Source of the DNA: Arthrobacter agilis
GTDB taxonomy: Bacteria > Actinomycetota > Actinomycetes > Actinomycetales > Micrococcaceae
Length of the DNA: 64,000 nt
NCBI RefSeq assembly: GCF_002157505.1
Contig: NZ_NFSC01000030.1
Coordinates: forward strand, 124,001-188,000
Direction: 5' to 3'
Of the stretch, positions 26,825 to 31,647 are shown piece by piece (positions within the stretch are counted from its first letter, which is position 1; every line of letters starts with the position of its first letter). The notes under the pieces were generated by a model. It was not told the origin of the DNA, did no database searches, and was given only the letters and a program-made list of their open reading frames with translations. Both the position numbers and the translations under genes were made by a program.

Positions 26825-27718
26825 TCAGGCGCGCGACGCCTGGCGCTCGGCCGCCTCGACGACGTTGGCCAGGAGCATGGCCCGCGTCATCGGCCCCACT
26901 CCCCCGGGGTTGGGCGAGAGCCAGCTCGCCACCGAGGCAGCTCCCGGATCGACGTCGCCCGTGAGCTTCGCCTTCCCGGTGTCCGGATTCTCGACCCGGC
27001 TGACGCCGACGTCGAGCACGATCGCGCCCGGCTTGAGCTGCTCCGCCGTGATCATGTGGGCGATGCCGGCAGCGGCGACGACGACGTCGGCCCGGCCGAG
27101 GTGGTCGGCGAGGTCGACGGTCCCGGTGTGGGCGAGGGTTACGGTCGCGTTGATCTGCTTGCGGGTCAGCAGCAGGCCCAGCGGGCGCCCGACCGTCACG
27201 CCGCGTCCCACGACGAGCACGTTCCGGCCCTTGAGGTCGACGTCGTGCCGGAGCAGGAGCTCCACGATGCCGTGCGGGGTGCAGGGCAGGGGCGAATCCA
27301 TCGGAGCGTTGACGTTCAGGACCAGCTTGCCCAGGTTGGTGGGATGCAGGCCGTCGGCGTCCTTCGCCGGGTCGATGCGGCCCAGGATCGCGTTCGTGTC
27401 GATGTGCGCGGGGAGCGGGAGCTGCACGATGTACCCCGTGGTGGTGGCGTCCTCGTTCAGCTCGTCGAGGACCGCCTCGAGCTCCTCCTGCGTGATCGTG
27501 TCCGGCAGGTCCCGGCGCACGGACGTGATGCCGACCTCCGCGCAGTCGCGGTGCTTGCCGGCCACGTAGGAATGGCTGCCGGGATCGTCCCCGACGAGGA
27601 CCGTCCCGAGGCCCGGTGTCACGCCCCGCTCGCGCAGTGCCGTCACGCGTTCGGCGAGTTCGGCCTTGATCTGCGCGGCGGTTGCCTTCCCGTCAAGAAT
27701 GCGGGCTGTCGTGCTCAT
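26825..27718 (-). CDS. folD: Bifunctional methylene-THF dehydrogenase/cyclohydrolase
   Basis: Interconverts 5,10-methylene-THF, methenyl-THF and 10-formyl-THF. The 297-residue protein shows [15 protein letters not shown], the cyclohydrolase-site region [28 protein letters not shown] and the NADP-binding [14 protein letters not shown]. It is third in the glyA operon; its first bases lie inside the end of the small Cys-rich gene (26-bp overlap). It is probably under the ZTP riboswitch in the glyA leader, as many ZTP riboswitches control folD. Confidence 0.96.
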
Positions 27719-27878
27719 GCGATTCGTCCTTCTCGGAGTGCTTGTCCAGTTGCTCGAGCAGGAATGCCTTGCCGCGGTCGCAGCAGCCGGTGAAGCAGCA
27801 CTCCTCGGTGGGGATGTCGAAGTCGGTCGACGCCGCAGCCTTCGATCGAAGGGCGCCTGGCGGCAGCGGCTCTACCAC
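27693..27878 (-). CDS. Small Cys-rich protein between glyA and folD
   Basis: Candidate gene of up to 61 residues, not recognised. The core reads [18 protein letters not shown] (two Cys-Cys pairs spaced CC-x3-CC), followed by an amphipathic helix [11 protein letters not shown] and a His/Asp/Ser-rich tail. From the middle of the gene to the folD overlap, about 32 of 36 third codon positions are G or C, as in neighbouring real genes. The GTG at 27878 overlaps the glyA stop region; an AGGAGGA sits directly before it, which is closer than ideal, so the start may be further in. The 3' end overlaps folD by 26 bp. The Cys pattern could bind metal; this is inference only. Confidence 0.6.
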
Positions 27879-29179
27879 TCCTCCTGGCCCGGGTAGAGCG
27901 GGAAGTTCGCGGCGAGCGCGGACACGCGGGCGCGCAGTGCCTCCACGTCGGGCGACGGCTTGAGCGCGGCGGCGATGATCTCGCCCACCTCCGTGAACTC
28001 GGCGGCGCCGAAACCGCGGGTGGCGAGCGCCGGGGTGCCGATGCGGAGGCCGGAGGTGACCATCGGCGGACGGGGGTCGAACGGCACGGCGTTGCGGTTG
28101 ACCGTGATCCCCACCGAGTGCAGGACGTCCTCGGCCTGCTGGCCGTCCAGCGACGAGTTGCGCAGGTCCACCAGGACGAGGTGGACGTCGGTGCCCCCGG
28201 TGAGGACCGAGACGCCGTGCTCGGCGACGTCGGACGCGGTCAGGCGCTCGGCGATGATGCGGGCGCCCTCGAGGACGCGCTCCTGGCGTTCCTTGAACTC
28301 CGGCGATCCGGCGATCTTGAACGCCGTGGCCTTGCCTGCGATGACGTGCATCAGCGGGCCGCCCTGCTGGCCGGGGAAGACGCTGGAGTTGAGCTTCTTG
28401 GCCCACTCCTGCTTGGCGAGGATGACGCCGGAGCGGGGTCCTGCGAGGGTCTTGTGCACGGTGGACGTGACGACGTCGGAGTGGGGGACGGGGTTGGGGT
28501 GGACACCGGCGGCGACGAGGCCTGCGAAGTGGGCCATGTCCGTCCACAGGAGGGCGCCGACCTCGTCGGCGATGGACCGGAAGGCCGCGAAGTCGAGCTG
28601 GCGCGGGTAGGCGGACCAGCCGGCGATGATGACCTGGGGCTTCTCGGCCAGGGCCTGCTCGCGGACGCGCTCCATGTCCAGGCGGTGCGTGTCCTCCTCG
28701 ACGCCGTAGGCGGCGACCTCGTACAGCTTGCCGGAGAAGTTGAGCTTCATGCCGTGCGTCAGGTGTCCGCCGTGCGCGAGGGACAGGCCCATGATCTTGT
28801 CGCCCGGCTTGATCATGGCGGCGAGCGCTGCGGCGTTGGCCTGGGCGCCGGAGTGGGGCTGGACGTTCGCGAATTCGGCGCCGAACAGCGCCTTGACGCG
28901 CTCGATCGCGAGGTTCTCGGCGACGTCGACGTGTTCGCACCCACCGTAGTACCGGCGTCCGGGGTAGCCCTCGGCGTACTTGTTGGTCAGCACGCTGCCC
29001 TGCGCCTCGAGGACGGCGCGGGGTGCGAAGTTCTCGGAGGCGATCATCTCGAGGGTGTCGCGCTGCCGTGCGAGCTCGTCCCGGAGGACGGCGGCGATCT
29101 CCGGGTCCACCTCGGACAGCGGGGCATTGGTGACGGAATCTGCGGCAGCGTGGGATGGGGCCATGGGCGACGTTGTCAT
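27872..29179 (-). CDS. glyA: Serine hydroxymethyltransferase
   Basis: PLP enzyme making glycine and 5,10-methylene-THF from serine and THF. The 435-residue protein has the family segments [26 protein letters not shown] and [17 protein letters not shown] with the PLP lysine. Start ATG 29179 ([15 protein letters not shown]) has GAGAAGGA at good spacing; a longer open frame upstream lies in the leader RNA. It heads an operon with the small Cys-rich gene and folD. A ZTP-riboswitch-like leader precedes it, consistent with control by purine/folate stress. Confidence 0.97.
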
Positions 29180-29280
29180 CGGTTGATCCTTCTCTGGGTC
29201 TCGCGTCGAGGTCAGCTTGAGTCGCGGGCGGGATGCGGATCGACTGTCCGCGCCCGGCCGCTCGTGAAACGTGACCCGCG

Positions 29281-29390
29281 GCCCAGGCGTGCGATCCGTG
29301 GTCTGCACCGGAAGCACAGGACGCCCCGAAGGATAATCCTGGCCCCACGCCGCTTCCTGGTGGTTGCCCACCCTACGCCAGTCGCGACGC
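29281..29390 (-). ncRNA. ZTP (pfl) riboswitch in the glyA leader
   Basis: Read on the minus strand, the glyA leader contains GCGTCGCGACTGGCG, then a perfect hairpin GGTGG-GCAA-CCACC (29372-29359), then AGGAAGCGGCG, and after a variable linker GCACGCCTGGGC (29292-29281). These match the order and conserved bases of the ZTP/pfl aptamer (CGUGACUGGCG, P2 with GNRA loop, GGGAGCG, and 3' CCGCCUGGGC). CGUCG and CGGCG can pair as P1. A TAGCAT box at 29400-29395 would start transcription right at the aptamer. About 100 nt lie between aptamer and ATG, including a bulged GC hairpin (29225-29256) that could be the expression platform. ZTP riboswitches typically turn on glyA, folD and purH when ZMP/ZTP rises. 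Confidence 0.8.
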
Positions 29391-29394
29391 TCCC

Positions 29395-29400
29395 ATGCTA
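29395..29400 (-). promoter_or_regulatory. Candidate -10 box for the glyA riboswitch transcript
   Basis: TAGCAT on the minus strand, with the first aptamer bases 5-10 nt downstream. No good -35 is seen. Between here and the flavoprotein start (29401-29581) no further gene, RNA or repeat was recognised. Confidence 0.4.
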
Positions 29401-29581
29401 GCCGTACCGCTGGCCGGGCCGCCACCGGCGCCGCGGCTTCCGGATGGGTGGATCATCCGCCCGTCCCACCCTCCCGGGGCACCGGAGGATTGGGCGGGCG
29501 GAATACGGCGTTACCACGAGGTGGTTGGCACTGGTGGGCCGGAGCTCCGAGAGTCGGGATCAGGCCGGGAGAGGTCGGGAG

Positions 29582-30790
29582 ATGCGCGGGTCGTCAGCTG
29601 GGCAGACCGGACAGGTTCTGGACGGACCGGTCCGCCGTGTTCGCGTCGTGGTGATCGGCGCCGGTCAGGCGGGGCTGAGCAGCGCGTACCACCTGAGGCG
29701 CCGGGGGCTCGAGCCGCACCGCGACTTCGTGGTCCTCGATGCGAATCCCGCTCCCGGGGGTGCCTGGCTGCACCGCTGGCCCGCCCTCACCTTCGACGCC
29801 GCCCACGCACTCCACGACCTCCCGGGCTTCCCGCTCGGTACGCCGGACCCCAAGGAGCCGGCGTCCTCCGTGGTGAACCGCTACTACGGGGCCTTCGAGC
29901 GGGAGTTCGACCTCCCGGTGGTCCGCCCGGTCTCCGTGGTCCGCGTCGACTCGGGATCCGACGGTGACACATCCGGCGGCGGGGCATCCGACCGCACTGT
30001 ATTCGAGGGCGACGTATTCGACGGCGGGGACCGCGGCCCCCTGCACGTGACCACCACGGGCGGCACCTGGGTGGCGGACGTCGTCATCAATGCGACCGGG
30101 ACGTGGGACCGCCCGTACTGGCCCTATTACCGCGGCCGCGACGTCTTCGCGGGCCGCCAGCTGCACACGCAGAACTACCGTTCGGCCGACGAGTTCACGG
30201 GCCGGAGCGTCCTCGTCGTCGGCGGCGGGACGTCCGCCGTGCAGTTCCTGCTCCAGCTCCACGAAGCGGGTGCCAGGCCCCTCTGGTCGACCCGGCGTCC
30301 TCCGGAATTCACCCGCCGGCCGTTCGACCCGGAATGGGGCAGGGAGGTCGAGGCGGAGGTGAATGCCAGGACGAGTGCGGGTCTCCCTCCTGCCAGCGTC
30401 GTGTCGGTCACCGGACTGTCCCTGACCGCGCAGTACCAGGCGGGCATCGACGCCGGCATCCTGGTGTCGCGGGGCCCCCTGGCCGAGCTGCGCGAGCGGT
30501 CCGCGGTCTTCGCCGACGGTTCCGAGGAGCCTGTCGACGCGGTCCTGTGGGCCACCGGCTTCCGGGCCGCCCTGGACCACCTGGCTCCGTTGCACCTCCG
30601 TGAGCCGGGCGGCGGCATCCGGATGGACGGCGTGCACGTGCTGAAGGAGCCGCGCCTTCTGCTCGTCGGCTACGGCGCATCCGCATCGACGCTCGGCGCA
30701 TCCCGGGCCGGCCGGGCCGCCGCAACCGCAGCCCTCGGCAGACTCCGGAGCATCGCGGACAGCGGGGCTACCGGTAATCTTGCGGGGTGA
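29582..30790 (+). CDS. FAD-dependent oxidoreductase / flavin monooxygenase-like protein
   Basis: Protein of about 402 residues with two dinucleotide-binding motifs: VVVIGAGQAGLSSAYHL (FAD, about residues 22-38) and VLVVGGGTSAVQFLL (NAD(P)H), plus the linking INATGTWDRPYW that resembles the ATG motif of CzcO/FMO-like enzymes. The Baeyer-Villiger fingerprint is not evident. The start at 29582 has GGGAG upstream; the frame is open further 5' with no sign of conservation. Its TGA overlaps the purU GTG by 4 bp, linking it to one-carbon metabolism by position only. The substrate is unknown. Confidence 0.82.
   Translation: MRGSSAGQTGQVLDGPVRRVRVVVIGAGQAGLSSAYHLRRRGLEPHRDFVVLDANPAPGGAWLHRWPALTFDAAHALHDLPGFPLGTPDPKEPASSVVNRYYGAFEREFDLPVVRPVSVVRVDSGSDGDTSGGGASDRTVFEGDVFDGGDRGPLHVTTTGGTWVADVVINATGTWDRPYWPYYRGRDVFAGRQLHTQNYRSADEFTGRSVLVVGGGTSAVQFLLQLHEAGARPLWSTRRPPEFTRRPFDPEWGREVEAEVNARTSAGLPPASVVSVTGLSLTAQYQAGIDAGILVSRGPLAELRERSAVFADGSEEPVDAVLWATGFRAALDHLAPLHLREPGGGIRMDGVHVLKEPRLLLVGYGASASTLGASRAGRAAATAALGRLRSIADSGATGNLAG
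30775..30786 (+). promoter_or_regulatory. Possible internal leaderless promoter for purU
   Basis: TAATCT (30775-30780) followed by TGCGGG and the GTG of purU. The box lies within the end of the flavoprotein gene and may allow independent purU expression besides coupling through the GTGA overlap. Confidence 0.4.
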
Positions 30791-31647
30791 CTTCCCCCGA
30801 CGCGCCCCGCTCCTATTCCCTGACACTGTCCTGTCCCGACCGGCCCGGCATCGTCCACGGGGTGAGCGGAGCACTGGTCGCGGTGGGGGCCAACATCACC
30901 GAATCGCAGCAGTACGGCAGCCCGGACACCGGCTCGTTCTTCATGCGGGTGGCGCTGAGCACGGCCTCCCCGGAGCAGGCCCTGCACTCGGCACTCGAGC
31001 CCGTCGCCGCGGAGTTCGGCATGGAGTGGTCGCTGGTCGAGTCCGAGCGTCGCACCCGGACGCTCATCATGGTCTCGAAGGCTGCGCACTGCCTCAATGA
31101 CCTCCTGTTCCAGCACCGTTCGGGCACCCTCGCCATCGACATCCCCGTCATCGTCTCCAACCACCGCGACCTCGAGGACCTCGCCGCCTTCTACGGCGTC
31201 GAGTTCCACTACATCCCCGTGACCGCGGAGACCAAGGACGACGCCGAGGACGCCCTGCGCGCCCTCATGGACCAGCACGACATCGAACTGGTGGTCCTCG
31301 CCCGCTACATGCAGATCCTCAGCGACAAGCTCTGCGAGGACCTGCGGGGCCGGGCCATCAACATCCACCACTCGTTCCTGCCGTCCTTCAAGGGTGCCCG
31401 GCCGTATCACCAGGCGCACGCACGCGGGGTCAAGCTGATCGGCGCGACCGCCCACTACGTCACGGCGGCCCTCGACGAGGGGCCGATCATCGAGCAGGAG
31501 GTGATCCGGGTGGACCACGCCCGCACCGCCGAGCAGTTGGCGTCGATCGGACGCGAGCTCGAGGGACGCGCGCTGGTCCAGGCCGTGCAGTGGTACGCGG
31601 AGCGCCGCGTCCTCCTCGACGGGCGCCGCACCATCGTCTTCAACTGA
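30787..31647 (+). CDS. purU: Formyltetrahydrofolate deformylase
   Basis: Hydrolyses 10-formyl-THF to THF and formate, balancing one-carbon pools and supplying formate. The 286-residue protein has an N-terminal ACT domain (YSLTLSCPDRPGIVHGVSG) and a C-terminal formyltransferase fold with SNHRDLEDLA, the catalytic-region NIHHSFLPSFKGARPYHQA and DEGPIIEQ. It starts with GTG inside the flavoprotein stop. It is divergent from the ZTP-controlled glyA-folD operon, so the locus handles folate one-carbon units in both directions. Confidence 0.95.
   Translation: MTSPDAPRSYSLTLSCPDRPGIVHGVSGALVAVGANITESQQYGSPDTGSFFMRVALSTASPEQALHSALEPVAAEFGMEWSLVESERRTRTLIMVSKAAHCLNDLLFQHRSGTLAIDIPVIVSNHRDLEDLAAFYGVEFHYIPVTAETKDDAEDALRALMDQHDIELVVLARYMQILSDKLCEDLRGRAINIHHSFLPSFKGARPYHQAHARGVKLIGATAHYVTAALDEGPIIEQEVIRVDHARTAEQLASIGRELEGRALVQAVQWYAERRVLLDGRRTIVFN

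Follow-up and report, generated by a model that had tools for sequence, protein, structure and literature searches.

The window, that is, the whole stretch of 64,000 nucleotides that was analyzed, from a soil bacterium of the genus Arthrobacter, carries on its minus strand a glyA gene followed by a small Cys-rich open reading frame (ORF) and folD, and two further genes run divergently from this operon. The first-pass annotation had placed a ZTP (pfl) riboswitch in the glyA leader, and the sequence blocks on which it relied, from TAGCAT through GCACGCCTGGGC, were all located on the minus strand in the order given there. The features of the locus, listed in the direction of glyA transcription, are the following.

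30787-31647, divergent from the glyA operon: purU-like gene (10-formyl-THF hydrolase; ACT and formyl-transferase domains)
29444-30790, divergent from the glyA operon: flavin-dependent oxidoreductase-like gene (domain search)
29395-29400, minus strand: -10 box TAGCAT, of the GnTANNNT type (positional conservation)
29268-29391, minus strand: ZTP aptamer (pfl, RF01750; 31.4 bits, models R1 and R2, pair counts)
29390-29376, minus strand: GCGTCGCGACTGGCG block (read from the sequence)
29389-29384 with 29353-29348, minus strand: P1 of the aptamer
29376-29379, minus strand: GGCG, 5' strand of the predicted pseudoknot, complementary to CGCC at 29289-29286
29372-29359, minus strand: P2, the hairpin GGTGG-GCAA-CCACC, whose GCAA is a GNRA loop (read from the sequence)
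29358-29348, minus strand: AGGAAGCGGCG block (read from the sequence)
about 29346-29311, minus strand: linker hairpin of the aptamer
29303-29296 with 29281-29273, minus strand: P3 of the aptamer, with loop CGCCTGGG
29292-29281, minus strand: GCACGCCTGGGC block (read from the sequence)
29286-29289, minus strand: CGCC, situated in loop L3, 3' strand of the predicted pseudoknot, complementary to GGCG
29194-29276, minus strand: predicted competing hairpin (minimum-energy fold, arm covariation)
29276-29272 with 29214-29210, minus strand: outer helix of that hairpin, GGTCA (P3 3' strand) with TGACC, the inner stem lying between
29286-29281 with 29200-29194, minus strand: extra pairing of CTGGGC predicted in the window's own clade (minimum-energy fold)
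29187-29192, minus strand: Shine-Dalgarno sequence GAAGGA, 7 nt upstream of the start codon (ATG) of glyA (read from the sequence)
27872-29179, minus strand: glyA, serine hydroxymethyltransferase, 435 aa (Pfam SHMT, E 1.9e-154)
27693-27878, minus strand: Cys-rich ORF of 61 aa (CCFTGCC), whose GTG start overlaps the glyA stop and whose end overlaps folD by 26 nt
26825-27718, minus strand: folD, methylene-THF dehydrogenase/cyclohydrolase, 297 aa (Pfam PF02882 and PF00763)

The interval 29281-29400 originally assigned to the riboswitch holds the quoted blocks but is slightly short at its 3' side, where P3 extends to 29273 and the predicted hairpin to about 29194. As for the neighbors, the purU-like product would act in the metabolic direction opposite to that of the ZTP-controlled operon.

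Of 35 Arthrobacter genomes, 29 contained a homologue of the small Cys-rich ORF; 22 genomes from other genera contained none. In eight of these 29, the matched stretch is interrupted by one stop, perhaps because the profile extends beyond the end of those proteins. The stretch CCFTGCC-[DE]-RGKAF was identical across the seven Arthrobacter rows of alignment A3, including that of the window. When the single sequence was searched against 149 genomes of the family, the ORF was found in six of the eight Arthrobacter genomes, together with one distant CC..GCC relative in another genus (genome G378, locus L183; E 6.3e-4). In the eight Arthrobacter loci that show its end (L177 to L182, L097, and L098), the reading frame reaches or crosses an ATG, and the bases past that ATG resemble the start of folD, except in L182, which shows too few to tell; L031 ends before this point. 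The protein had no family model in Pfam or NCBIfam and no plasmid match. The overlaps between the genes suggest that control in the leader extends to this ORF and to folD, which would place a Cys-rich small protein, almost confined to Arthrobacter so far, under likely folate-stress control.

To place the leader among known RNA families, the region 29150-29500 was compared with 4227 Rfam families by cmscan, and RF01750 (ZTP) was the top-scoring match with the full model (31.4 bits, E 0.0014). The glyA leader was also the best RF01750 match in the 3.88-Mb genome (31.4 bits), the next one scoring 21.3 bits. The Rfam covariance-model search envisaged in the first-pass annotation thus gave nothing at the curated cutoff, a default Rfam scan of the window at the gathering threshold listing no match, but it did yield this match below it. 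The gathering score of RF01750, 39 bits, is a detection limit and not a structural feature, and the score of the leader is low because of an insert of 38 nt in the linker and a short P1; in the RF01750 alignment the outer part of P1 contains three nonstandard pairs. The conserved core was present (ACTGGCG, GGAAGCG, and CGCCTGGG, within 29382-29282), and relatives share these blocks. Matches to miRNA, snoRNA, and nhaA-I models in a permissive scan of the leader were dismissed, since all fell far under their own gathering scores.

At E 0.05, RF01750 matched 40 of 57 genomes, 13 of them over the cutoff. Within Arthrobacter, 27 of 35 genomes matched at this E value and none of these reached 39 bits; the own-order model R1, in which Arthrobacter sequences are included, likewise matched 27 of 35. 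In the order, 221 of 297 genomes gave a match at E 0.05 (193 over the cutoff); the figures were 103 of 149 genomes for the family at E 0.1 (74 over the cutoff) and 21 of 198 genomes for a phylum sample at E 0.001 (18 over the cutoff). There is, then, a conserved subthreshold ZTP group within one genus that default Rfam scans miss. Among the matches listed, the closest named relative of the GlyA protein was that of Arthrobacter bussei (97% identical). One locus titled Sporosarcina beigongshangi (L101) encodes a GlyA 86% identical to that of the window behind an actinobacterial-type ZTP leader, and is likely a mislabeled genome.

The aptamer structure was evaluated on leaders collected as loci with the aptamer motif pattern followed by the glyA motif (113 leaders); loci lacking the pattern were left out, so the conservation of the pattern itself is by construction. 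On the 110 of these that make up alignment A2, 90.0% of the cells were paired, and two-sided changes occurred in 13 of 24 pairs (82 cells), a value as high as this being reached in 0 of 500 shuffles. Control structures slid along the alignment were only 36 to 51% paired; the slide by +1 contained 90 cells with two-sided change, more than the 82 of the real structure, and the slide by +2 gave 12 two-sided pairs, against 13, with an equal number of pair types (35). Support for P3 was weaker, with helices 4 to 6 paired in 71 to 81% of the cells each. The GGCG/CGCC blocks of the predicted pseudoknot were invariant in 110 of 110 rows, hence without covariation, an invariance due in part to the use of this motif in picking the rows. 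RNAalifold recovered P1, P2, and P3 unaided from 40 Micrococcaceae leaders, with two-sided change in 3 of 22 pairs. As for the entire leader, its unbound fold had no extra stability compared with shuffles (z, -0.01).

Model R1 scored the window at 84.7 bits, the window sequence being itself part of that model. The held-out model R2 was built from 43 aptamers outside the Micrococcaceae; alignment A4 consists of 43 of the 51 A2 rows taken as non-Micrococcaceae, L101 (labeled Sporosarcina) not being counted and eight long or near-duplicate rows (L136, L155, L159, L160, L165, L167, L169, and L173) being removed by hand. In a search of the window, R2 matched the P1/P2 half of the aptamer with 42.6 bits (E 8.8e-7), the next match having 14.4 bits. 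It aligned its P3 into the linker, so the held-out support applies to the P1/P2 half; the true P3 alone obtained 11.0 bits. Given 19 aptamer-bearing loci, R2 found all 19; the four loci L209 to L212 yielded nothing at E 1. The assignment to the ZTP class made in the first-pass annotation is therefore upheld by the Rfam rank, by the held-out model for the P1/P2 half, and by the two-sided pair changes among the 110 relatives. In addition, the genes downstream, glyA and folD, are those of the pfl motif context described in the available part of the original publication (PMC2864571). Taken together, these data make us highly confident that the glyA operon is headed by a ZMP/ZTP-sensing (pfl) riboswitch, a genuine and somewhat unusual, though mostly ordinary, member of the known class; ZMP binding and the direction of control would follow by analogy with the family.

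The placement of the -10 box at the 5' end of the aptamer, also part of the original proposal, was borne out by its strict positional conservation. A TANNNT sequence lay 14 to 22 nt upstream of ACTGGCG in 109 of the 113 leaders, against 5.2 expected by shuffling, with a spacing mostly of 18 (70 occurrences) or 19 (34 occurrences). In 125 aligned upstream regions, a G preceded the box by two bases in 81%, and no conserved -35 was found. A consensus sigma-70 promoter with a -35 element was sought in 28900-29700 and none was found, the conserved part being a -10-type box only. The phylum sample provided 21 loci, 4 of which lacked the motif and were not counted; among the other 17, two of them from the own order, the box was 17 to 23 nt away in 15, the exceptions being L226, with the box at 26 nt, and L230, with no box nearby. 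The start of transcription is predicted near 29388, at one of the first bases to pair in P1, so that, judging from the sequence, the RNA probably begins at P1. Such a start would explain why P1 is short. P1 length rose weakly with the distance to the box (Spearman, 0.20; P = 0.012; 148 of 153 aptamers). Our literature search found no account of an Arthrobacter ZTP switch or of its start site.

An intact aptamer was not found in all members of the genus. Eight of 35 Arthrobacter genomes had no aptamer match, and four of these eight keep the small ORF. The glyA leaders were read in these four, which have no intact aptamer and retain both glyA and the ORF; the other four (G001, G011, G017, and G032) are also devoid of the small ORF. 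In L209 and L211 no aptamer was seen in the glyA leader and CAGGTAGCCTGACCTGTAG was kept; the box of L209 forms a perfect CTACAGGT-N6-ACCTGTAG palindrome. In these two leaders the box may act as a promoter, an operator, or an RNA hairpin. The leaders of L210 and L212 have the appearance of degenerate ZTP aptamers, with TAGCAT and a P2-like hairpin kept and both ACTGGCG and CGCCTGG absent. From these sequences, the state of L209 to L212 is better read as losses than as old absences, and the ZTP switch seems to be dispensable in Arthrobacter.

A hairpin between the aptamer and the start codon had been anticipated as well, and its arms do covary. In Micrococcaceae, the segment that follows P3 pairs with the segment preceding a distal TGACC. 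Energy tests were run on sets of 84, 25, and 81 representatives from which near-duplicates had been removed. With 25 representatives, the arms of the same species gave -13.1 kcal/mol, compared with -9.7 kcal/mol when permuted between species (z, -6.1). Four control segments, namely the next upstream segment (21 representatives), the downstream segment, the final 14 nt ahead of the start, and the stretch from the box to the start, lacked this signal, with z values of 0.2, 1.2, 1.6, and 1.8, in the opposite direction. When the inner arm was compared with the whole downstream region in 29 Micrococcaceae-type representatives, z was -4.9 by energy and 1.4 by helix score. At the base of the hairpin, GGUCA and UGACC could pair, counting G-U, over all 5 positions in 35 of the 40 leaders and over 4 or more in 37; three of the five leaders with a shorter helix had only 3 pairs. 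In the minimum-energy fold of the window, the stem also captures CTGGGC of the aptamer loop. As modeled, pairing at the hairpin base would compete with P3 for its 3' strand.

An exchange of this kind was also examined outside the Micrococcaceae element. In 52 leaders lacking that element, the fit of the P3 3' strand was better to the downstream region of its own leader than to regions from other species (z, -3.6 in energy and +3.8 in helix score), and the control segment was flat (-0.6 and 0.3). Permutation of the P3 strand across all 81 leaders gave z values of -2.4 and +4.2; these between-species comparisons may retain some lineage effects. No signal of own versus other strands was present in the 29 Micrococcaceae-type representatives (-0.4 and 0.4), in which both strands are nearly invariant. 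Dinucleotide shuffles showed no excess of anti-P3 complementarity in 84 leaders (mean z, 0.02; 1 of 84 below P = 0.05). We therefore regard the P3 strand-exchange step as somewhat favored, on comparative grounds. The proposal is in line with a covariation model published for ZTP switches, as far as the accessible part of that work goes (PMC13273304), and also with what is available of the study of strand displacement in the Clostridium beijerinckii switch (PMC10085676).

ZTP riboswitches bind ZMP and act as ON switches. In the mechanism that we propose, a shortage of 10-formyl-THF would lead to accumulation of ZMP, which, bound to the aptamer, would keep P3 closed and so allow glyA, the small Cys-rich gene, and folD to be expressed more strongly, which would in turn restore one-carbon units. 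With no ZMP, UGACC would pull the P3 3' strand, GGUCA, into the downstream hairpin, and expression would drop, an exchange of strands of the type known from ZTP switches. The hairpin might lower expression through Rho-dependent termination, by impeding 30S subunits from binding, or by speeding up decay. Intrinsic termination is unlikely for want of a U-tract: on the minus strand no U-rich terminator was found in 28900-29700, the single find being on the plus strand, inside glyA. Stretches with at least 6 T in 8 were present in 5 of 113 leaders, and with at least 5 in 14 of 113.

Several other explanations have to be considered. The most serious of them, which we consider possible though doubtful, accepts the aptamer and denies that the downstream hairpin is its expression platform. 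According to it, the GGTAGCCTGACC box of other Micrococcaceae would serve as a second promoter, with TAGCCT as its -10, or as a protein site, providing ZMP-independent expression of glyA, and the match between UGACC and P3 would be accidental. The box includes a TANNNT and a GGT-N6-ACC palindrome, and it is retained by L209 and L211, whose glyA leaders carry no aptamer. Its persistence in these two aptamer-less genomes indicates another role besides that of anti-P3 strand. Moreover, it reads TGAGC in L022, L030, and L033, with just 3 pairs to the P3 strand. The box pattern was found once each in G002 and G018, the sole two of 22 Arthrobacter genomes to have it. An operator serving several genes was discarded, the pattern occurring once each in G002, G018, and G036 (34 genomes, G036 being from another family) and being absent from the other 20 Arthrobacter genomes. 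Against a second promoter or protein site, the clade of the window has no TAGCCT and yet keeps UGACC in nine of nine leaders, the arm that precedes the box covaries with the one that follows P3, in the manner of an RNA hairpin, and leaders not of the Micrococcaceae type have matched complements of the P3 strand with a different sequence. A narrower objection concerns the output alone: the unbound leader would pair the ribosome site directly, and ZMP would free it. The competing stem in the minimum-energy fold of the window (CTGGGC with GACCCAG) ends next to the Shine-Dalgarno sequence, as such masking would have it, but enforcing the aptamer raised the predicted accessibility by over 0.1 in no more than 2 of the 40 leaders and lowered it by over 0.1 in 11 of 40, which leaves the idea unsupported and, in our judgment, improbable.

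That the blocks are the remnant of a decayed, nonbinding ZTP switch is very improbable. The RF01750 score is indeed subthreshold, and the genus does contain leaders with broken or absent aptamers (L209 to L212); nevertheless, P1, P2, P3, the predicted pseudoknot, and the core are all intact in the window, the own-order model has a match in 27 of the 35 Arthrobacter genomes, and what remains in L210 and L212 differs in appearance, lacking ACTGGCG and CGCCTGG. A chance resemblance of GC-rich sequence, for which the score below the gathering threshold could be invoked, is practically negligible in view of the genome rank, the conservation, the covariation, the held-out model, and the promoter position.

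With a ZTP riboswitch as the preferred reading of the leader, one further proposal can be made, as a long shot. In Actinomycetota, P1 placed at +1 would fuse promoter and aptamer, and ZMP, with no intrinsic terminator involved, would keep P3 from a U-less competing hairpin, possibly also capping the 5' end with a stable helix that slows 5'-end-dependent decay. If true, this would be a distinct output mode for the ZTP class, and Arthrobacter would seem to have lost it by two or more different routes. The wiring (start at P1, no terminator, competing hairpin) is testable, and the aptamer-less relatives offer natural controls.

The C. beijerinckii ZTP switch ends in an intrinsic terminator, and work by Strobel of 2019 is cited in connection with this pfl riboswitch. 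A downstream hairpin that takes the P3 3' strand has been proposed for it, according to the part of the report available (PMC10085676), and the leader studied here resembles it in this respect, whereas no U-tract was found in it and its conserved 3' arm lies well downstream, at a varying distance. In many pfl RNAs, although not in all, a terminator overlaps the 3' part, as described in the accessible portion of the original work (PMC2864571), in contrast with the absence of a U-tract terminator from the minus strand of the window in 28900-29700. Compared with RF01750, the window has a P1 of about 5 to 6 bp, versus 10 in the model, a linker insert of 38 nt, and a -10 box that begins 18 nt before ACTGGCG. 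The two share P1 with the ACUGGCG internal loop, P2, P3, the CGCCUGGG loop, and the blocks of the predicted GGCG/CGCC pseudoknot, with glyA and folD downstream in the purine and one-carbon context that the same portion of the literature describes (PMC2864571).
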